Below, piece after piece: positions 31,870 through 41,189 of a stretch of 64,000 bases of DNA (the stretch's first letter is position 1; every line of letters begins with the position of its first letter). This DNA is from Alcanivorax sp. DP30 (GTDB taxonomy: Bacteria > Pseudomonadota > Gammaproteobacteria > Pseudomonadales > Alcanivoracaceae): contig NZ_WTUY01000002.1 in NCBI RefSeq assembly GCF_009882945.1, positions 250,927 through 314,926 on the forward strand, read 5' to 3'. A program made the translations under genes and the position numbers. Under the pieces are notes generated by a model. That model did not search any database and was not told the DNA's origin. It worked only from the letters and a program-made list of their open reading frames with translations.

Positions 31870-32844
31870 TTAGTTCGGGAAGAAGTTCAGTTTGTAGTCG
31901 CCTTTCCAGGTTTCCACATTCATGGCACCGAAGTTCATCCCCTTGGCGATTAAAAGAATCCGCCGTTCCAGCTTGGGGTCACCCAGCTGGCTGGACTTGA
32001 TCTTGGCGTCAGTTACTTCACCGCCAGGGGCAATTACCAGCGAAAGGACCACGGTGCCTTGCAGGGCAGGGTTGCTGCGTAGTGCCCGCTGGTACTGACT
32101 ATTGAACTTGCCAGCATAACGGTCAAACACCCGACGCAGTTGTTCCTGGGTGCGTCGGCTCTTGCCATCGCTGCCCTTGCGGGTGGTACTGGCCACCTGA
32201 CCGGATTCGACGATTTTGCTGTCCACCTTGCCGGTTCCGACGGTACCCGAAGACAGGGTTCCGCCACCACCGCCACCACTGGATGCCTTGGTGACGGCAA
32301 CGCCGCCGGATCCTGAACTGGCGCGTTTGCCAATCAGATCACGTTCAGCTTTGGCCTCGCTGCTGCCACCGGTGCGCAGTTCATTGCCTGAACTGACCAG
32401 AGGGCCGATGTCGTCAAGGCCGGCGAGCGAGTCGCCCAGATCTTCCTCAAGCTTGGCCCGGGCTGTTTCCCGCGCTTCTTCCCGCTGCTCCGGAGTCGGG
32501 TCGGGGCGTGGCTCCGGCTTGGGTTCCGGTTTCGGTTCCTCTGGTTTGGGCTCTTCCTTTTCAGGCTCCTCTTTCTCCTCTTCCGGTTCAGGTTCCGGCT
32601 CAGGAGGTGGGGGCTCTTTCTTTTTCTCAAGCACCATCTGCGCCAGACGGTCAGGAATTTTCTGCTGCTCGCGACGATCCGGCTTTTCGATGGTAACGGA
32701 TTCGACCAGTATCATTAGCGCAAGGGAGAGAATCAGAAGAATGATGACAACGCCGTACAGACGGCGGTCTTCCCCCTCTTGCTTGTCCCACGGCAGAGAG
32801 CCGTCGATGAGGATGCGCAGTTTGTTATTGTTGTTCTGCGTCAT
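31870..32844 (-). CDS. TonB/AgmX-like energy transducer, last gene of Agl-Glt-like cluster
   Basis: A 324-residue protein with a short cytoplasmic N-terminus, one membrane span (about 30-50), a Pro/Glu/Lys-rich rod (about 76-120) able to cross the periplasm, a Gly/Ser-rich linker (about 165-215) and a C-terminal TonB/AgmX-PglI type domain (about 233-324; VVLSLVIAPGGEVTDAKI, YKLNFFPN). In Myxococcus the comparable GltG and GltJ proteins carry force from the AglRQS channel to the outer membrane. It overlaps the upstream ExbD-like gene by 4 bp. A role in coupling the proton channel to the TPR proteins of the same cluster is inferred. Confidence 0.87.
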   Translation of the reverse strand: MTQNNNNKLRILIDGSLPWDKQEGEDRRLYGVVIILLILSLALMILVESVTIEKPDRREQQKIPDRLAQMVLEKKKEPPPPEPEPEPEEEKEEPEKEEPKPEEPKPEPKPEPRPDPTPEQREEARETARAKLEEDLGDSLAGLDDIGPLVSSGNELRTGGSSEAKAERDLIGKRASSGSGGVAVTKASSGGGGGGTLSSGTVGTGKVDSKIVESGQVASTTRKGSDGKSRRTQEQLRRVFDRYAGKFNSQYQRALRSNPALQGTVVLSLVIAPGGEVTDAKIKSSQLGDPKLERRILLIAKGMNFGAMNVETWKGDYKLNFFPN

Positions 32845-33341
32845 TCACTGTCCTCCTCTGCCACTTTAAGCACAGCGAAGGCCACCTTGGTGTATGGGGT
32901 TTCCATACAGCTACGCATCAGTTTCTTGATAACCACATAGGGCACGTCCCGGTCAGCGAGAATCATAATTTCCCGCTCGCCTTCGGGGCTCACTGCCAGT
33001 GCCTGGGCGGCGCGGAATTGCAGTTCGTCGATGAGGGCCTGGACGGTTCGCTCTTCTTGTTGGCGAACGGCCTCAGTACCGGCGATTCGTTGCCCTTCCA
33101 CAATGATGTCACTGGGACTAACTTGTATAGTGAGAACTTCGCTGGGCAACTCCTGGGCAATGGATTCAGGCAATTGAATGTCCTTGTTATCCGGGAGTTT
33201 GGCCGCGTTGTTGTTATTCACCAACAGAAAGATCAGCAGGATAGTGAAGATATCCATCAACGATGTCAGGTTCAGGGCTGCCACCGTCTTGTGCTTGCTG
33301 TGATGGCGCGCCATTCGGCGGGCGCGAGACGACTTCTTCAC
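32841..33341 (-). CDS. ExbD/TolR-like stator protein with proton-site Asp
   Basis: A 166-residue protein with a basic cytoplasmic N-terminus, one membrane span (about 24-45) and a periplasmic ExbD/TolR domain. The essential membrane Asp of the family is present as Asp30 in LTSLMDIFTILLIFLLV. The periplasmic part ends with the typical VPYVVIKKLMRSCMETPYTK segment. It overlaps its neighbours by 4 bp on both sides. In M. xanthus terms it fills the place of AglQ or AglS. Confidence 0.9.
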   Translation of the reverse strand: MKKSSRARRMARHHSKHKTVAALNLTSLMDIFTILLIFLLVNNNNAAKLPDNKDIQLPESIAQELPSEVLTIQVSPSDIIVEGQRIAGTEAVRQQEERTVQALIDELQFRAAQALAVSPEGEREIMILADRDVPYVVIKKLMRSCMETPYTKVAFAVLKVAEEDSE

Positions 33342-33868
33342 GCGTCACCTCCTGTGTCGGCGGCCTTGTCAGCGGGTGCTGAGCCAATGTTGATGTTGGG
33401 GAACAGCTCTTTCTTGATGGTCTGGCCGTTTACTTTTGTATCGTAAAGACGCACCACATCCATGGTCTTGATCATGACCCGGTAGGGGGTTTCATCTTCA
33501 CAAAGCAGGGTAACCGCTGTCTCAGCGGGGAACTTCTGTTTCAGTTCAACCAAAAAATCATGAAGCGCGGCACTGTCATGCTCTTCGCCCTTGTTCTCCA
33601 CAATTTTCAGTACGGCACTGGTATTGCGATCCACCACTTCATAGCGGTTTTCATAGATCAACACTTCCAGTACCAGCTTTTCTTTTTTATCGTCTTCCGA
33701 GGGCACACTGCTGTCGCTAATTGCAGGCAGGTTCAGCTGCAGGATGGATACCTGAGCAAACACTGCATTGATCAGCAGAAAAGGAATCAGCACTACCATC
33801 AAGTTAAGAAAGGCAGTGATGTTCAGTTCCACCTCGGTGTCGCGCGAACTTCGTCTGCGAAATCGCAT
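33338..33868 (-). CDS. ExbD/TolR-like protein with Asn in place of the proton-site Asp
   Basis: A 176-residue paralogue of the next gene: basic N-terminus, one span (about 17-40), periplasmic ExbD-type domain (TLLCEDETPYRVMIKTMDVV). At the position of the conserved membrane Asp it has Asn22 (codon AAC, read from 33803-33805), within ITAFLNLMVVLIPFLLI. Without a carboxylate it should not carry protons by itself; it may be a structural subunit of a mixed TolR-like pair. It starts 41 bp after the TolQ-like gene and overlaps the Asp30 paralogue by 4 bp. Confidence 0.9.
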   Translation of the reverse strand: MRFRRRSSRDTEVELNITAFLNLMVVLIPFLLINAVFAQVSILQLNLPAISDSSVPSEDDKKEKLVLEVLIYENRYEVVDRNTSAVLKIVENKGEEHDSAALHDFLVELKQKFPAETAVTLLCEDETPYRVMIKTMDVVRLYDTKVNGQTIKKELFPNINIGSAPADKAADTGGDA

Positions 33869-33909
33869 ACCAGATCCTTACACCAGGTTGGCGAAAACAA
33901 GAAATCGGC

Positions 33910-34605
33910 TTATTGGCCGTCGTTCTTGCGCTCTTGCTGGGCAGAAACCTGGCGGAATACATTGACGAATTTCACCGAGGCCATTTCCATGCTGTCGACC
34001 ATCTTGCCGGTCATGGAGTTGATGAATGCAAAAGCCAGCAGCATTGGGATTGCGGCAATCAGACCAAAGGCCGTGGTGTTCATGGCAACGGAAATGGAGG
34101 CAGAGAGCAGGTCTGCTTTCTGTGCGGGGTCGGCACTGGCTACGGCGGTAAAGGCGCTGATCAGGCCCAGAATGGTGCCAAGAAGGCCGAGCAGGGTGGC
34201 GATATTGGCAAAGGTGGCGATGTAGGGAGTGCGAGTCTCCAGGCGAGGGATGATCTCCATCAGACCTTCTTCCATGGCCAGCTCGATATCGTCATGGCGC
34301 TTTGCAGTTTTGGCGCGTTCCAGGCCGTAACCAATAACTTTAGCCATGCCAGTGTTGCTGGTGCTGACCACATCCAGTGCCTGACGGAACTGGCCTTTGG
34401 CAATCAGGGGATAGACATCTTTCCAGGTCTTCTGGTTACGAGCCTTGGTTGTCTGCAGGTAAATGATACGTTCCAGTGACAGAGCCAGACCCAGGGCCAG
34501 AACAATCAGAATGGGATACATGAAAAAGCCGCCATCCTGAATAAACGAGATAGCGGTATCGACGATGCCTGCATTCTGTGCGGCAGCGGTGGCAGTGGTG
34601 GGCAT
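33910..34605 (-). CDS. TolQ/ExbB/AglR-like proton channel protein
   Basis: A 231-residue inner-membrane protein with three spans (about 27-50, 128-155 and 168-195). The conserved TM2 ATLLGLLGTILGLISAF and TM3 VAMNTTAFGLIAAIP contain the Thr residues lining the proton path in ExbB/TolQ/MotA channels (Thr144, Thr177-178). A strong AGGAGAAG ribosome site precedes it. It is separated from the upstream TPR part of the cluster by 165 bp with a hairpin, and is followed by two ExbD-like genes, giving a full stator set. Confidence 0.93.
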   Translation of the reverse strand: MPTTATAAAQNAGIVDTAISFIQDGGFFMYPILIVLALGLALSLERIIYLQTTKARNQKTWKDVYPLIAKGQFRQALDVVSTSNTGMAKVIGYGLERAKTAKRHDDIELAMEEGLMEIIPRLETRTPYIATFANIATLLGLLGTILGLISAFTAVASADPAQKADLLSASISVAMNTTAFGLIAAIPMLLAFAFINSMTGKMVDSMEMASVKFVNVFRQVSAQQERKNDGQ

Positions 34606-34740
34606 GGACTTCTCCTGCGGTGTTCCTGGTTTGTGTTGTTTTGTGTGGCTGACGGCAATAGGTTTGAGTTGCTATTGCTGTGGCCTTCCCCAAAAGGTCA
34701 TTTTTTATCAGAAAATAAGGCGATACGCATCTAATGAAGT

Positions 34741-34764
34741 GCCGGGCTGGCGAACCAGTCCGGC
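34741..34764 (-). terminator. Intra-cluster hairpin upstream of the TolQ-like gene
   Basis: 10-bp stem with one G-T pair (34741-34750 with 34755-34764), loop CGAA, 8 bp past the end of the 98-residue protein gene on the minus strand. No T run follows directly. It may attenuate or protect the upstream transcript and so set different levels of TPR and stator genes. Confidence 0.4.
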
Positions 34765-34771
34765 AGCTTCC

Positions 34772-35068
34772 TCAGTCGAGGAACAATCCTTCATCCTCGG
34801 GTTTACTGGTGAGTAACTGATGGTACTCGATTTCCCGCATCAGGACTTCCTGATCCAGAGGCTCAAGCACACGGTTGAGGAGTGATGAAGTGGGATCCTT
34901 CTTCTCCAGTTTCACCTCACGGTCTTTCCAGGGGACCACGTTAAGGACGGTGGGAGCTTCCTGGGTACCAATGACATTGGTGGCAGCAGTATCTTCATTG
35001 CCATCAGCGCCATGAGCGGCAGAGGCAAGGGAAACGATTAGACTTACGGTAATGAGATTGGCGCGCAT
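34772..35068 (-). CDS. Small secreted protein of the Agl-Glt-like cluster
   Basis: A 98-residue protein with a signal peptide (cleavage likely after ...AAHGA, about residue 20) and a charged mature part with two short predicted helices (TSSLLNRVLEPLDQEVLMREI). No family was recognised. Its start overlaps the stop of the TPR lipoprotein gene by 1 bp, so it is translated as part of the unit. A role as a small periplasmic adaptor is inferred only from its place. Confidence 0.75.
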   Translation of the reverse strand: MRANLITVSLIVSLASAAHGADGNEDTAATNVIGTQEAPTVLNVVPWKDREVKLEKKDPTSSLLNRVLEPLDQEVLMREIEYHQLLTSKPEDEGLFLD

Positions 35069-35832
35069 TAGTTAACACCTCCTGTGTCTTCCCCTGCACC
35101 ATTTCCGGCGACAGGTTGCCGGGGGGCATCGGGGACGCGGTTTTCGAGGTCAGCTATCCAGTTGGCAACATTGGTATCCGCCTGCTTCTGCAGGTTCTGG
35201 TAGGCCCGGAAGTGTGCAAGGGCCAGTGGCAGATCCTGAAGGTAAAGTTCGCCAAGTACCGCCAGGTTGAAGTGGGCCCGGGCATACTTCGGATCAAGAG
35301 TCAGGGCCTCTTCATAATGGCTACGAGACTCATCAAACTTGCCTTGCTCCCGTAACGCCAGGCCAAGACCATTGTGAGCATAAGGATTGGCGTCATTGAT
35401 GGCCAGGCATGCTCGAAATGCCTGCTCGGCCTCAGGATACTTTTTCTGCTCCATACGGATCAGGCCCACGTTCAGTTGGGGGCCTGAAAGTTGTGGATAT
35501 CGCTCGGCGAGTGACTGAAACATGACAAGTGCCTGCTGGCTGTTACCTGCCATACGAGTCTGCAAGGCACGGGCGTATTCGGCCATGGCCTGTTGGGCTA
35601 TTTTTTCGACTTCAGGCGCATGGGGAACGGGGGGGATGTGGATGGCATCGCTGTCTGCAGCGGCGCCACCTTCCTTTTGCCCCTCGTACCTGCTGGTATG
35701 ACCTTCAGCTTCCCCTTCTAGCCCACCCCCGGTTTGCGTTGCACAGCCTGACATGACCAGCGTAAGGGTCACAGACACCGCTATCAGCGGTGGGCGCAGG
35801 GTTCGTGATAAATCAGTAAATAATGTCCACAT
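35068..35832 (-). CDS. TPR lipoprotein, GltE/AglT-like
   Basis: A 254-residue protein with a signal peptide and lipobox (LVMSGC), then a linker rich in Gly and Glu and about four TPR units (for example NPYAHNGLGLALREQGKFDE). The size and order match M. xanthus GltE (AglT), an outer-membrane TPR lipoprotein, though this is inferred. ATG 35832 is chosen over TTG 35850; both overlap the preceding gene (20 or 38 bp). The next gene overlaps by 1 bp. Confidence 0.83.
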   Translation of the reverse strand: MWTLFTDLSRTLRPPLIAVSVTLTLVMSGCATQTGGGLEGEAEGHTSRYEGQKEGGAAADSDAIHIPPVPHAPEVEKIAQQAMAEYARALQTRMAGNSQQALVMFQSLAERYPQLSGPQLNVGLIRMEQKKYPEAEQAFRACLAINDANPYAHNGLGLALREQGKFDESRSHYEEALTLDPKYARAHFNLAVLGELYLQDLPLALAHFRAYQNLQKQADTNVANWIADLENRVPDAPRQPVAGNGAGEDTGGVN

Positions 35833-38761
35833 GGCTCTCAACCTGTTCAAACTTCGCGTAGCGGCCAGGAATCAGTTCTGCCAGAGCCCCAAAACTCTTT
35901 TTTACCCACTGATCATAGATGTCATCTGTGACCAGGTTGGCATTGGCAATAAGAATGTCGATAGCCTGATCTTCATAGGGGAGGGCCTTGTCCTCCAGCA
36001 GCATGGTGTATTCTTCAAGCTCCAGCTCATCCAGCCCTGGGGGGCGTTCCGACGCAATCAGGTCCTTGGCCAAGACCCGATACATTTCGCCAATCTTGTA
36101 GTTGGCGGCAGTGGCAAATTCCGCCACGCCGATATCTGCCACTGCCTGATAATCCGCAAGCGCGGCTTTCATCACAGTGGTTTTTTCCGCCAGTGATGTT
36201 TTCAGCGGTTGGCCAAGCTTGATGCTGTTGAAGGTCTTAAAGTTGGGCTCTGCAAGCGTAAAGCTGGCGTAGGCTGCCAGCCAGGCAACGCGGTCGTTGG
36301 CAGCGCTTCCGGCTTGACGATAACTGTTGACCAGTTGCTTGAGCCAATAGGTTTCACGGGCGTTGTCACCGGTCTTGCGGTTCAACTCTACAAGACGGAA
36401 CTGGGCTTCAGAGCGAAAATCATAGGGTTGCGGCCATTCCTGCAAATACTGCTCATAGAGTGCAATGGAGGCAGCAGGCTGTTCTGCACGATCCTGCATC
36501 TTAGCTGCTTTCCATAACGCCTGACGAGACAGTTCGTCATCCTCACCCTTGTAGTTGGCTGCGATGATGGCCAGCTCTCCTGCGGCAGCGGTGTAGTTGC
36601 CCTGGTTTTCATAGGCGACTGCCAGTTTGTCGGGAATGGTTTCGGTGAGCGGATCATCCGGGTAGCGATTGCGGAACGCTTCCAGTACCGGGATGGCGTC
36701 CGCACCGCGGCCATGATTAATGTACAACGTGGCGGCATCAAATTCGGCATTCTTGCGCACGGCTGCTTCCGGTACAGTCTGGCCAACACGAAGGAACGTG
36801 GCGGCGGCGAGCTCGATATTGCCGGAGGCCTGGGCCGCTTCCGCCTGGCGATAGATGCTGATGGCCAGTTTCTCTCGATACTCGGCGCGCTCGGTGGCGG
36901 GCATTTGCAGAGCCAGTAGTTTGCCATAGGCAAATTCAGCGACGGGGTAATTGGCCAGATCAAATTCCCCATTGGCAATGGTGGCCCAGCCATAACGCAA
37001 GAGATCGTTGGGTGGTGGCGGTTGTCGATTCACCAGAATGCCAGCGGTCTTGACTGCTCCCGGGATGTCACCCAGCGCCAGCTGATCTTCGGCTGTGTTT
37101 CTGAGCACATTGGGGACTTCAGGATGTGACGGGAAGGTCTGGCCAAATTTCTGAGAGCTGGCAATCTTTTTCGTCCGCCATTGCTCGCTTTGATCTTCTG
37201 CCAGAGCACTATTGCCAAGTACCTTCTGATAGGCGACGAGAGCAGAGTAGGCGGCAGTAGAGGCTTCCGGGTACTCAGGGTAGCTATAGGCGGTACGTTC
37301 AAATTCGGTTACAGCTGCTGGGTATTGTTGTGCAGCAAACAGTACATCTGCGTAGCGGTGGTTGACGTCGCCCTGGTTTTCGCTGGCGGGCGGCGTATCA
37401 AGGTATTGTTTGTACCAGTTGGCAGGTGCCTGGAAGTCACTGGGCTTGCCGGATTTCTGTGCCAGAACATGGTGGTATTCTGCCAGATCCAGGATGTGGC
37501 CCTTTAACAAATCGACGTATTGTTCGCGAATGTCAGGGTGCTGCTGCCAGTAGTTGCTGGCTATACCGTAATGCTGAACGAACTTTTCCTTGGCCGGTAA
37601 GACCAGAGTAGGAAACCCGCCTTTCTGGTAGGAGTCGATCTGCAGGCTGGAAAATTCTGGCGCCAGCTCAGAATCGGGATACACAGTGACGAACATGTCG
37701 AAGGTTTCCGCGGCATCACGGAACCTCTCCTGGCCCAGGTAGACTTGCCCAAGGGTGCGGTAGATATCCGGTTCGTAGTCTCGCTGGCCATTGCGGGCAA
37801 ACCACTTGCGTACTGATTCGGCACCATCCTGATTGGTGAAAGCCAGACCCGCTACCCTTTGAGTATCGTTGAACAGCTTGTTTTCCATGCTGGTGTCGTT
37901 ATCCAGCTCGGGGTGCCCGTTCAGGGTGTCCAGCAAGGTGAAAAAACTGCCCAGAGCGGGGGTGTAATCGCCCAGCTTATAGTGGCTCCAGCCCTGCTTA
38001 TACAGTGCCTGGTTGTAGAATTCGTTGCCTTTGCCACGGCGGATGACATCCGCATAGGCCTGTTCGGCATATTCGTAATCGCCATCAGAGAAAAGCATTT
38101 CGCCACGACGGAACTGGGCTTCAAGTGCCCATTCACTGTTGGGGTATTGCTCTACCAGTGAATCCAGGCTTTGCCGGGCAAGGTCCAGTTCGCCATCCAT
38201 GGCGTAAGCCTTGGAGAGGAGGTAGTAGGCTTCAGCCCGCTCGTTGGGATCACTGGTGTTATTGAGCAGTTCCTGGTACAGGGAGATGGCTGTGGAGTAG
38301 TCCACGTTTGCATCTGCGATGGTCGGCGCCATGTTCCCTGCCTGATCCAGCAAGGCGAGTTTGCGCTGTGTATCAGTGGTGGTATTCACCTGTTCCATGG
38401 TGTTTTCGTACACCATTTGATCGACCTCACGTTCGAGACGTTCATTGTCTTCCTGCATCTCGGCCATGTCCTGCTCAGTGGCAGACGACAAGGCGAGATC
38501 AGCCATGCGACGGAGGGTTTTGGCTCGACGTTCAGGATCATCAAACAGTTCCGCCGCTTGACGATAGCTGGCCAGAGCATCCTTGGTGGTGGCGTTATCG
38601 AGTTGCTGCTCTTCGATAACAATATCTGTGCCTTCAAGATCTGCCAGGGTAGTGCCGCCGAATTGGGCCTGTTGATCCAGGGTGCCGCCGCTTGGGGCAC
38701 TGGCACAGCCGCTGATCGCAATAACGGCAGCGGCAAGGCTGTGCAGGCGAAAACGGTTCAC
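35813..38761 (-). CDS. Very large TPR lipoprotein, GltD/AgmU-like
   Basis: A 982-residue protein with signal peptide and lipobox (AISGCAS, Cys19), so it is expected at the outer membrane facing the periplasm. Nearly the entire mature part is made of tetratricopeptide-like units (for example SEWALEAQFRRGEMLFSDGD, PDSELAPEFSSL), about twenty or more. A similar large TPR protein, GltD (AgmU), forms the periplasmic core of the M. xanthus gliding motor. It overlaps the genes on either side (4 bp and 20 bp), so translation is coupled. Confidence 0.85.
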   Translation of the reverse strand: MNRFRLHSLAAAVIAISGCASAPSGGTLDQQAQFGGTTLADLEGTDIVIEEQQLDNATTKDALASYRQAAELFDDPERRAKTLRRMADLALSSATEQDMAEMQEDNERLEREVDQMVYENTMEQVNTTTDTQRKLALLDQAGNMAPTIADANVDYSTAISLYQELLNNTSDPNERAEAYYLLSKAYAMDGELDLARQSLDSLVEQYPNSEWALEAQFRRGEMLFSDGDYEYAEQAYADVIRRGKGNEFYNQALYKQGWSHYKLGDYTPALGSFFTLLDTLNGHPELDNDTSMENKLFNDTQRVAGLAFTNQDGAESVRKWFARNGQRDYEPDIYRTLGQVYLGQERFRDAAETFDMFVTVYPDSELAPEFSSLQIDSYQKGGFPTLVLPAKEKFVQHYGIASNYWQQHPDIREQYVDLLKGHILDLAEYHHVLAQKSGKPSDFQAPANWYKQYLDTPPASENQGDVNHRYADVLFAAQQYPAAVTEFERTAYSYPEYPEASTAAYSALVAYQKVLGNSALAEDQSEQWRTKKIASSQKFGQTFPSHPEVPNVLRNTAEDQLALGDIPGAVKTAGILVNRQPPPPNDLLRYGWATIANGEFDLANYPVAEFAYGKLLALQMPATERAEYREKLAISIYRQAEAAQASGNIELAAATFLRVGQTVPEAAVRKNAEFDAATLYINHGRGADAIPVLEAFRNRYPDDPLTETIPDKLAVAYENQGNYTAAAGELAIIAANYKGEDDELSRQALWKAAKMQDRAEQPAASIALYEQYLQEWPQPYDFRSEAQFRLVELNRKTGDNARETYWLKQLVNSYRQAGSAANDRVAWLAAYASFTLAEPNFKTFNSIKLGQPLKTSLAEKTTVMKAALADYQAVADIGVAEFATAANYKIGEMYRVLAKDLIASERPPGLDELELEEYTMLLEDKALPYEDQAIDILIANANLVTDDIYDQWVKKSFGALAELIPGRYAKFEQVESHVDIIY

Positions 38762-40674
38762 GATCCAGTCCTCTGTTTAGTGTCGCTGGAGACAGAAGTG
38801 TCCTGAAGCCGGGCTACGGCCAGGTGTGCTTCTGCCAGCTGGTCAGCCAGTTTTTTCTGGTTGGCACGCAAAAGGGCGAGTGCGTCTGCCTGCATGCTTT
38901 GTTCGAGCGCTGCCAGAGTCTCTTCAGACATGCGCTTGATATCGGCAATGCGGGATCGCTGCTGAGCCAGTCGCTGGCCAAGGTCGTCTCGCGTGCGCAA
39001 TGTGGCATCACGGATTTGCATGCTGACAGCGGCCACGCGCTCAGCCAGTATACGGCTTTCCTCTTCAAGTTCTGTTGCAGCCTGAATCTGTTTCTCGCGT
39101 TGTTCAATCGACTGGTGGGCAATATCCCAAAGTAACAGTCCGCGGACTCGACGCAGACGCAGGGCATTATCATGGGTTGAGTCTGGCAGGCGGCCAAACT
39201 GGTGGGCCATGGCATCGACTTTTTTCCACATGATGGCTTGTTCGGCGTTAGCCACATCGCCAGGGCTGCTCATGTCCACATAATTGGGGATGGCGGTGCT
39301 CAGCTTGTCACTGGCCAGCATCACCTGTTCCTGTTTTTTCTGGTGCTGACTGATCTGCTTGCGGACACTGGGCAGGTTGCGGCTCAGGGTCTGTTGCTGA
39401 ATCTGGTATGTCTCTTCCAGAGCCGGCAAGGCGCGTTCCCAGTGCTCAATCATGGTTTTAATCTGGTGAATCTGACGATAGTGCTGAAAGCGTTGCGCAA
39501 AGGCATTGCTGGAAAACAGCTTGTACAGGTACGAAAGCTCGCCACCCTGAGCCAAATCTTCGCTGTTGGCAGGCAGGAAGCCGACTTCGTTTACGTCGTC
39601 AGGGAGAAGGTTTTCGGCCCAGCCGGGTTCCCCGATATTCTCAATGGCCCGTTGCAGATCCTTGAGAGCCTCACGGTATTGGCTGGCGGCATATTTGTAG
39701 CCGGCAAGCGCCTGAGGCATGCCGCCAAGCTCTTCATAGGCACGAGGAGCCAGCATCAAGGCTTCCTGAACAGAAGGATGACTGCTGTTGCGGCTGACGG
39801 CTTCCAGCCAGAGGGGCAGGGCGCGCTTTACGGCGCCGGCACGGTAGTTGGTCAGGCCCAGTGCCAGCAGGGCATCTTCGGAGAAGGGGCCGTCGCTGCG
39901 AACCTGGCGCAAGGATAATTGTGCGCCTTCAAGCTGATCGCTGCGTAATTGGGTAAGCCCCGCTGCCAGCGCAGCCCGGTCACGCAATGCCAGCGCCTGG
40001 TCATTGGTTGCAGAGAGGTTAAGCAGCGAATTGAGTAATTCCAGTCCTTCTTTCTCGTGGCCACCTCGAATCAGCGCAACACCCATATTATAGGTGGCAT
40101 AACGACCTTCATTCGTCTCAATGGCTACGCCGTTGAGGTAATCCAGTGCGCCGGTGAAATCCCCTTCAGCCATTAAAATGTTGGCAAGCATCAATTTGCG
40201 ACGCGCTTCATCTTCTGGTTCCAGTCCTTCGACTTTTTTGTCGTCAAGGATCATTGCTGCTTCAGCCAGATTCCCTTCCCGGTAGTGAAGAGCGGCCTTG
40301 TGAAGCCAGGTTTGAGCACGGGTATGGCTGAGAATATCTTTCTTGAGAAGACGATTGAAGATGGTTTCAGCGCTTTCAGGGAGGCCGTAGGTGACGTAAA
40401 GGTCCCCCAGCAACAATTCTGCGTAGTCCGTCTCTTCATCGAACAGGGCAAGTTGCTGGTTGACCAGAAGCTGATTGATGGCGTCAAAAGTGGCATGGCG
40501 GTAAAAGTCGAACATGACTTCACCGAAAGCCAGATAGCGGTGTTGCTCCATGGTCAGTGGAGTCGGCCCGGTATCGATTTCGTCAAAAAATTCGACTTTG
40601 GCTGCCTGGGCCGTTGCAAAAGATGCGGAAATACACGCCGCAAGCAGCCACTTTTTCAGTGGGGGCTGCTTCAT
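38758..40674 (-). CDS. Secreted TPR protein, GltC-like
   Basis: A 638-residue periplasmic protein with signal peptide (cleavage about after ATAQA), TPR-like repeats in the first 330 residues and a long charged coiled coil near the C-terminus (about 500-630). ATG 40674 is preferred since it overlaps the upstream stop as ATGA; ATG 40686 would add four residues. The size and place next to the large TPR lipoprotein resemble M. xanthus GltC, a periplasmic TPR protein; this comparison rests on architecture only. Confidence 0.83.
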   Translation of the reverse strand: MKQPPLKKWLLAACISASFATAQAAKVEFFDEIDTGPTPLTMEQHRYLAFGEVMFDFYRHATFDAINQLLVNQQLALFDEETDYAELLLGDLYVTYGLPESAETIFNRLLKKDILSHTRAQTWLHKAALHYREGNLAEAAMILDDKKVEGLEPEDEARRKLMLANILMAEGDFTGALDYLNGVAIETNEGRYATYNMGVALIRGGHEKEGLELLNSLLNLSATNDQALALRDRAALAAGLTQLRSDQLEGAQLSLRQVRSDGPFSEDALLALGLTNYRAGAVKRALPLWLEAVSRNSSHPSVQEALMLAPRAYEELGGMPQALAGYKYAASQYREALKDLQRAIENIGEPGWAENLLPDDVNEVGFLPANSEDLAQGGELSYLYKLFSSNAFAQRFQHYRQIHQIKTMIEHWERALPALEETYQIQQQTLSRNLPSVRKQISQHQKKQEQVMLASDKLSTAIPNYVDMSSPGDVANAEQAIMWKKVDAMAHQFGRLPDSTHDNALRLRRVRGLLLWDIAHQSIEQREKQIQAATELEEESRILAERVAAVSMQIRDATLRTRDDLGQRLAQQRSRIADIKRMSEETLAALEQSMQADALALLRANQKKLADQLAEAHLAVARLQDTSVSSDTKQRTGS

Positions 40675-41189
40675 TGCTGATTCCATTCACGGAATTCAAA
40701 CTTGTGCTGCTGATTGTTAAGGTCGTCCACCACCTGCAGTTCAACCATTTTCTTGCCGGCACCCTTGGTAAAGGTATAGCTGGTGGTTTTCTGGTAATCC
40801 TTGCCCTGGGGATCATAGCCGGTGATGGTGGCTTCCATCTGGTGACGGCCGCTGGTCAAGTTGCCGGTATAGAGTCGCTGGATGCCGCCTTTGGTCAGCG
40901 CCTCAAATTCCTGATCGGTATAGAAATGGTAGCCCACGTGCTCACCATCGATGGTGAGGTTGATATCGACCAGGCGAATTGGGGTGCCCACGTCTACAGA
41001 GACAAAAATACTGGTTTGAGGCGTGGCGTAAAGCAGCTCACGCTCAAGCAGGGTCAGGTCGCGGTTCAGATTCAGGGCCTGGTTCTTGAGCTGGCGAATC
41101 TGTTCAGAAAGACCATCATCGCTGGCGGCACTAACCGGCGAGTACAGGGCCAGAAACAGAGCGCTGCACAGGGAGAAGAATACTTTCAT
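40671..41189 (-). CDS. Secreted protein heading the Agl-Glt-like cluster
   Basis: A 172-residue protein with signal peptide (cleavage about after SPVSAA), a short coiled coil (about 28-55) and a beta-rich domain (TSIFVSVDVGTPIRLVDINL, GRHQMEATITGYD). The shape recalls a carbohydrate- or peptidoglycan-facing beta domain, but no family was recognised. It is the first gene of the cluster, 171 bp from the divergent fructosamine-kinase gene, so the promoter of the system must lie in that gap. Confidence 0.78.
   Translation of the reverse strand: MKVFFSLCSALFLALYSPVSAASDDGLSEQIRQLKNQALNLNRDLTLLERELLYATPQTSIFVSVDVGTPIRLVDINLTIDGEHVGYHFYTDQEFEALTKGGIQRLYTGNLTSGRHQMEATITGYDPQGKDYQKTTSYTFTKGAGKKMVELQVVDDLNNQQHKFEFREWNQQ

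Follow-up and report, generated by a model that had tools for sequence, protein, structure and literature searches.

The 64,000-nucleotide stretch of Alcanivorax sp. DP30 contig NZ_WTUY01000002.1 that was analysed (the window) carries on its minus strand, at 31870-41189, a cluster of nine open reading frames (ORFs) encoding a TolQ/TolR-type motor together with tetratricopeptide repeat (TPR) proteins, a TonB-like rod and two unnamed secreted proteins. The original prediction for this DNA had described a minus-strand cluster of nine mostly overlapping genes at this place, and an ORF check recovered all nine. Six of the eight junctions overlap (by 16, 4, 38, 1, 4 and 4 nucleotides (nt), the 38 becoming 20 if gene 4 is read from its later start) and two are gapped, with 166 nt upstream and 41 nt downstream of the TolQ-like gene. 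The genes, with sizes in amino acids (aa), and the residues discussed below are as follows.

41189-40671, minus strand: gene 1 (a172), 172 aa, secreted, with a helix (residues 25-53) followed by a beta-sandwich; unnamed family
40686-38758, minus strand: gene 2, 642 aa, secreted, in the GltC position, with TPR-like helices at 46-351 and long helices at 394-465 and 505-641 (coiled coil)
38761-35813, minus strand: gene 3, 982 aa, TPR lipoprotein in the GltD position, lipobox ISGC (by eye)
35850-35068, minus strand: gene 4, 260 aa (254 from a later start), GltE-like TPR lipoprotein, lipobox MSGC (by eye)
35068-34772, minus strand: gene 5 (x98), 98 aa, secreted, with conserved G-x-x-[ED]-x-P ... 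[VI]-P-W
34605-33910, minus strand: gene 6, 231 aa, AglR/TolQ-like motor subunit, MotA_ExbB match of 91 bits (Pfam)
34087..34089, minus strand: Val173 codon of the TolQ-like subunit, where Asp/Asp motors have Glu (15/17) or Lys (2/17)
33868-33338, minus strand: gene 7 (TolR-1), 176 aa, the Asn-type partner
33803..33805, minus strand: Asn22 codon of TolR-1, replacing the proton-binding Asp
33341-32841, minus strand: gene 8 (TolR-2), 166 aa, the Asp-type partner
33252..33254, minus strand: Asp30 codon of TolR-2, invariant across the motor sets read
32844-31870, minus strand: gene 9, 324 aa, TonB/GltG-like rod with an AgmX/PglI-type C-terminal domain

Matches in Pfam and NCBIfam agreed with the parts that had been predicted, namely a TolQ-like protein, two TolR-like proteins, TPR proteins and a TonB/AgmX-like rod. 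The two TolR-like proteins matched ExbD at 48 and 56 bits, genes 2-4 matched many TPR families, and the C-terminal domain of the rod cleared the NCBIfam AgmX/PglI (myxo_SS_tail) cut-off (58.5 against 40 bits). The predicted 254-residue TPR lipoprotein was correct as to gene and type, the ORF having 260 codons and giving 254 residues only from the later start. An AlphaFold2 model of the gene 2 protein had a predicted local distance difference test (pLDDT) score of 83.0. In searches of the PDB by sequence the TolQ-like protein matched TolQ (45.6 bits), and a designed TPR protein was the sole match for the 982-aa protein. For genes 1 and 5 no convincing Pfam family (best expectation values, E, 0.12 and 0.18) and no NCBIfam family was found, and gene 1 gave chance-level matches only in the PDB (best E 0.24). 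Neither of these two proteins had a match in PHROGs and no plasmid record contained the 982-aa protein, and on these grounds a phage or plasmid origin was rejected. The genome itself contains five MotA_ExbB genes, one of which lies inside a second nine-gene cluster on another contig.

Identity of the cluster

Luciano et al. 2011 defined a core complex, aglRQS with gltC, gltD, gltE and gltG, which is present in Gammaproteobacteria with function unknown; its genes lie in one region in all non-deltaproteobacteria and in Geobacter, accompanied by one additional gene, and are duplicated in some genomes (PMC3169522; this and the other cited articles were available in part, and statements about them refer to those parts). 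Judged by its sequence, the window cluster is a member of this published complex and its parts are already known, as a single cluster holds AglR-, AglQ-, AglS-, GltC-, GltD-, GltE- and GltG-like genes. It had been anticipated that related clusters outside Myxococcota already appear in the gliding literature, and this is the case. The original prediction had further called the cluster a reduced relative of the Agl-Glt system; the relationship is upheld by the scores and tree given below, while "reduced" is not, since Luciano et al. regarded the core as the ancestral form from which gliding grew.

Against the NCBIfam Glt models the window proteins scored below the equivalog cut-offs (GltE 44.9 bits, cut-off 225; GltG 48.6 bits, cut-off 650). 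A Myxococcota cluster of the same gene order gave intermediate scores (GltG 157, GltE 95 and GltC 58 bits, all likewise below cut-off) and thereby bridges the window proteins to these models. The TolQ-like family model scored 119-214 bits on Myxococcota AglR-like proteins, 111, 58 and 48 bits on the genome's own TolQ and two ExbB-like proteins, and 62 bits on a further TolQ/ExbB-like protein in another locus (L261). In a rooted tree the TolQ-like subunit grouped with Myxococcota AglR and not with TolQ/ExbB (branch support 95), the outgroup consisting of only three proteins on long branches and 14 near-copies from the window's genus having been left out. The equivalog cut-offs of TolQ (64.9 against 221), TolR (32.2 against 127.3), ExbB (34.7 against 206.2) and ExbD (24.6 against 123.45) were all failed. 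On the basis of these cut-offs and the tree, an ordinary ExbBD or TolQR set was rejected.

Conservation and distribution

Of 50 gammaproteobacterial loci examined with family profiles, 42 contain exactly nine genes in the order of the window cluster, which is more than chance would give. Of the remainder, L040 has all nine genes with one extra match in front, L045, L047 and L200 are incomplete where stretch or contig ends cut them, and L044, L189, L192 and L201 are without one or more recognisable members. The window TolR-1 was matched in 37 of 57 relatives (E 0.001), and after four weak matches (G023, G037, G040, G047) were dropped, 33 relatives were counted as bearing the complex. Clear TolR-1 matches (E < 1e-43) occurred in 15 of 398 genomes in a phylum sample, the own genome included, the next match being at 4.8e-11; all 15 belong to one class. 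In an order sample the complex was found in 78 of 234 genomes (TolR-1, E 1e-10). TolR-1 had no match in four Geobacter-type genomes, although the core has been described from three Geobacter (Luciano et al.).

Clusters in the same gene order were also found in Enhygromyxa and other members of the Minicystis phylum. A small secreted ORF lies between the GltE- and AglR-like genes in 19 Myxococcota clusters, and 15 of 22 begin with a larger secreted gene. Profile comparison related the small ORFs to x98 (probability 79%, E 1.6e-5) and the front gene to gene 1 (96.5%, E 8.3e-10), with 6% and 1.3% in the crossed controls; the 19 x98-like and 12 gene-1-like ORFs entering these profiles had been chosen by position or weak match. 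Because this comparison ties both small genes to Myxococcota ORFs, the unit probably comprises nine genes and occurs in two phyla, the link for x98 being weaker than that for gene 1.

Several further loci were seen. Three genomes placed in the Minicystis phylum (L227, L228 and L229) have core complexes that fall inside the gammaproteobacterial clade, reflecting either transfer or mixed bins. Two unnamed genes recur downstream of the rod gene among 22 Myxococcota core clusters, one in 13 of them and the other in 12 (L230, L234, L237 and others); Pfam matched none of the five examples scanned. In L183 and L185 (Nannocystis) and in L251 there are Asn-type TolR-1-like genes for which the fetched stretch shows no recognised TolQ-like or TolR-2 partner, and L241 has a TolR-1-like gene without a recognised TolQ-like partner in a stretch cut by a contig end.

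The unequal TolR pair and the matching ring change

The proton-binding site was compared in 100 motor sets, which had been selected for holding all three genes (TolQ-like, TolR-1 and TolR-2). TolR-2 carried Asp in 100/100, and TolR-1 carried Asn in 82, Ser in one and Asp in 17. Within the 50 gammaproteobacterial sets TolR-1 had Asn in 49 and Ser in one, and TolR-2 had Asp throughout; 12 further stretches, which for the most part cover these loci again at greater length, were also Asn/Asp. All 17 Asp/Asp sets came from the Myxococcota-phylum half and include Myxococcus, Hyalangium, Minicystis and Sorangium. As 40 of the Myxococcota-phylum stretches were taken mainly from the top-scoring among the matches listed to an Asn-type profile, the 33 Asn to 17 Asp found in this half is not a prevalence. 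The TolR-2 proteins formed a single clade (support 99), and the three other ExbD/TolR proteins of the own genome that were read all have Asp.

The TolQ-like ring differs in step with the pair. Among 86 motor sets (the 14 near-copies left out), the position of window Val173, which corresponds to ExbB Glu176, was occupied by Glu (15) or Lys (2) in 17/17 Asp sets and by Val, Ile, Leu, Met, Thr or Gln in 69/69 Asn/Ser sets. A simple pattern, Pro seven residues after the Asn site, was present in 66 of the 69 Asn/Ser-type TolR-1 proteins. The Asp sets fell into two groups of the TolQ-like tree, one of them nested among the Asn sets; two changes are enough to explain this.

The two types of set also differ in their surroundings. 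In the Myxococcota half a GltD-like gene was found in the fetched stretch of 24 of 33 Asn sets and of none of the 17 Asp sets. Two of the remaining nine Asn sets are cut by contig ends (L228, L253) and one holds a weak GltD-like piece (L243); the other six (L235, L236, L240, L242, L244, L249) showed no GltC/D/E-like gene in the fetched stretches, and in four of these six the TonB-like protein is very long (850-998 aa). Among the Asp sets, L263 and L264 have a TonB-like gene nearby and L181 and L263 a weak GltE-like match.

Both Myxococcus sets read have Asp28 at the aligned position. In M. xanthus the aglQ D28N mutation removes proton conductance, and both gliding and sporulation are paralysed (PMC3858216); the core complex thus carries as a rule the state that kills its relative. 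According to a review, Asp is present in AglQ as well as in AglS, and whether the two form hetero- or homodimers is not known (PMC9389320). Neither the Asn/Asp pair with its ring change nor Myxococcota counterparts of the small genes were found in the accessible literature, which mostly left subscription journals uncovered, and the Asn/Asp rule with its matching ring change looks new at the level of sequence. To our knowledge, 5:2 motors have been described with an acid in both rotor helices. The rule is therefore a natural experiment on ion motors, one of the two helices being neutral in 83 of the 100 sets of this non-random sample.

A putative heme protein module linked to the complex

Gammaproteobacterial complexes have recurring neighbours. 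One run encodes an HzsA-like protein (family HZS_alpha), a protein combining SH3 and barrel, a barrel-like protein, a thioredoxin of TlpA type, DUF4266 and DUF3570, and divergent from it are genes for a LamG lipoprotein and another c-type protein. Two CxxCH sites each were present in the four HzsA-like proteins and the two LamG proteins read. Module and complex form one same-strand gene run leading into gene 1 in 13 genomes (L274, L275, L278-L286, L288, L289), although only the front of the complex is visible in L274 and L275. There are variations on this arrangement: L288 has ApbE and a second SH3/barrel pair between module and complex, DUF4266 was not recognised in the modules of L278 and L279, and L287 has a weaker HzsA-like gene just beyond the rod gene. 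In L043, L193, L199 and L202 a DUF3570 ORF overlaps gene 1. The own genome has a module with LamG, HzsA-like, SH3-barrel, barrel, TlpA, DUF4266 and DUF3570 genes at 168000-177250 of contig G000:C23 (L270). At 262600-265600 of the same contig (L271) there is another DUF3570 gene, distinct from the first and accompanied by a TlpA-type protein; this DUF3570 carries a TGAS site, and the ORF next to this pair looks ApbE-like by eye.

The module resembles the DUF3570/ApbE/DUF4266/thioredoxin systems of Meheust et al. 2021 in its DUF3570, DUF4266 and thioredoxin, and in some loci ApbE, and differs from them in adding HzsA-like and LamG diheme lipoproteins (PMC8238504). Flavinylation was attractive as the chemistry of the module from DUF3570 and ApbE. 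This reading is weakened because the published [S/T]GA[S/T] motif is present in only 3 of 14 distinct module DUF3570 proteins and missing in 11, and the own module's DUF3570 has SAAS and no such site. The available text of Meheust et al. does not mention ExbB, gliding or tetratricopeptide (PMC8238504). With the same limits of literature coverage as above, no link of HzsA-like or DUF3570 modules to the core complex was found, and this link looks new.

The complex and HZS_alpha occur together in three genome sets, which partly overlap. HZS_alpha was found in 28/33 relatives with the complex and 0/24 without, in 11/15 and 3/383 genomes of the phylum set (one of the three below cut-off), and in 58/78 and 3/156 of the order set (two of the 58, G606 and G641, below cut-off). 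DUF3570 behaved similarly in the phylum set (12/15 with the complex, 17/383 without). In at least 27 of the 58 order members complex and HZS_alpha are at most 20 kb apart; six of these 27 (G227, G606, G637, G641, G681, G723) have a weak HZS_alpha (23-34 bits) 3.5-5.6 kb off. HZS_alpha was present in 16 of 16 family members where only the window-type copy was found, and the assignment of the module to the window copy depends chiefly on this result.

The second copy and a giant ORF

In the genome's second complex the rod gene is followed directly downstream by an ORF for a secreted protein with DUF11 domains, at least 1898 aa long (L031, 1-5696; G000:C22). In one clade, to which this copy belongs, a large same-strand ORF comes after the rod gene, with at least 852 (L278), 955 (L279) and 1898 aa (L031), these being lower bounds as all three ORFs run off the stretch. 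Large same-strand ORFs also stand at this place in L034, L038, L050, L203, L216-L218 and L227, similarity to the L031 ORF having been shown for L038 and L050. A rule of one clade with one client was rejected, as the module-linked copies of G005, G009 and G012 fall in the second-copy, giant-ORF clade. The complex may serve several surface proteins.

Interpretation

From the observed gene content and order, the Asn/Asp rule and the linkage to and co-occurrence with the module, we propose with a probability of about 0.55 that the cluster is a stand-alone Agl-Glt-type core motor with a one-acid TolR pair, which assembles, displays or actuates a predicted surface heme module and does not move the cell. 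The path of the protons would run between the TolQ-like ring and a pair of TolR-1 and TolR-2 in which a single Asp is used. The TonB/GltG-like rod would carry the motion to the periplasmic and outer-membrane TPR proteins, two of which are lipoprotein-like, and at its outer-membrane end the machine would help in positioning, assembling or actuating the heme lipoproteins together with their partner barrels. The client of the window copy would be the module, comprising a putatively heme-binding diheme HzsA-like lipoprotein, a diheme LamG lipoprotein, the SH3-barrel and barrel proteins, TlpA, DUF4266 and DUF3570, presumably located at the surface. Proton-motive work across the envelope had been predicted from the start. 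One member of the motor pair, however, lacks the proton-binding residue of AglRQS, and among the functional clues the strongest points to the heme module and not to gliding. More tentatively, the complex might represent a distinct class of ion-driven motor dedicated to building or working a surface heme apparatus, with an Asn/Asp heteropair, a single proton site and a pore without the matching charge. Such a motor would need half as many protons per turn as one with an Asp/Asp pair, or would push instead of turn, and Myxococcus AglRQS would be its Asp/Asp offshoots or sisters.

Whether TolR-1 takes part in the motor at all bears on this proposal. It could be a non-motor structural partner beside a working rotor made of a TolR-2 homodimer, as Asn22 is unable to carry a proton in the way that Asp does and Pro follows seven residues on in nearly all Asn/Ser-type TolR-1 proteins. 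We think this rather doubtful, since the TolQ-like pore has altered together with TolR-1, an indication that TolR-1 lies inside the pore. In the 100 sets read the three genes are adjacent, although only sets containing all three had been selected. Gliding by a machine of the Myxococcus kind is suggested by the homology of motor and TPR parts, but we regard it as very improbable: Asn in TolR-1 is the state of the paralysed aglQ D28N mutant (PMC3858216), and in the view of Luciano et al. motility is not driven by the core on its own (PMC3169522). No MglA match was found in the own genome by a tool that had no positive control, the same query having found 574 relatives by another tool. An MglA 99% identical to that of Myxococcus was seen in L052, a record titled Comamonas sp. 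KCTC 72670, which is probably mislabelled or contaminated.

The client is the other point at which readings diverge. The complex might secrete or move a giant adhesin-like protein with the heme module merely a frequent companion, as the large ORF after the rod gene in the second-copy clade, with DUF11 in L031, would indicate; Myxococcus relatives drive gliding and also spore-coat assembly (PMC3858216). There is no giant gene beside the window copy, however, and HZS_alpha accompanies the complex in most bearing members of the order, which makes an adhesin unlikely as the sole client. The two ideas are not exclusive, because module, complex and giant ORF stand together in one array in G005 and G009. 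A motor for general envelope maintenance like Tol-Pal, with no dedicated client, would suit TPR proteins with YbgF-like profile scores. It appears quite improbable, given a distribution that is patchy in both the order and the phylum sample, the genome's possession of its own TolQ/TolR-like genes, and a linkage to one module that is strong for a general factor.

Several observations weigh against a heme-module client, the first two of them also favouring a maintenance motor. The window cluster stands alone with no module gene adjoining, and 20 of the 78 complex-bearing order members are without HZS_alpha. Two family members (G003, G035) have a window-type copy and no HZS_alpha. The own module is unlinked to the window cluster, and in L270, L272, L290 and L291 the module is present with the complex not adjoining. 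The second complex of the genome could serve the module instead. Because the genomes are related, the Fisher values for co-occurrence (down to 1e-33) are descriptive only and overstate the evidence.

Comparison with known systems

With Tol-Pal and Ton systems the complex shares a MotA_ExbB ring, ExbD-type partners and a TonB-type domain. It differs from them in having two different TolR proteins and TPR lipoproteins, and there is no TolB/Pal or TonB-dependent receptor among the nine. Type IX secretion has a proton-driven motor, and its PorW/SprE resembles the large TPR lipoprotein of gene 3 with a weak score (51.6 bits, below the cut-off of 250); the same protein scored 95.5 bits against the NCBIfam YbgF model. 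The AglRQS-Glt and AglRQS-Nfs machines of Myxococcus xanthus share the TolQ-like ring, two TolR-like proteins, the TonB-like rod and TPR proteins (PMC3858216). In contrast to the window type with Asn22 in TolR-1, Myxococcus AglRQS has Asp in both TolR-like proteins, and the Myxococcus stretches read contain the motor genes without the adjoining GltC/D/E/G-like genes found in the window.

Closest is the core complex of Luciano et al., for which seven genes and one additional gene were named, whereas nine are conserved here. For each of the two extra genes there seems to be a counterpart in core clusters of Myxococcota; the additional gene of Luciano et al. was described as having no Myxococcales homologue. 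Neither the Asn/Asp TolR pair nor the heme-module link figures in the available parts of that account (PMC3169522). The core complex was described in 2011 as a conserved machine without an assigned function, and a linked, co-inherited putative heme module makes this function directly testable.

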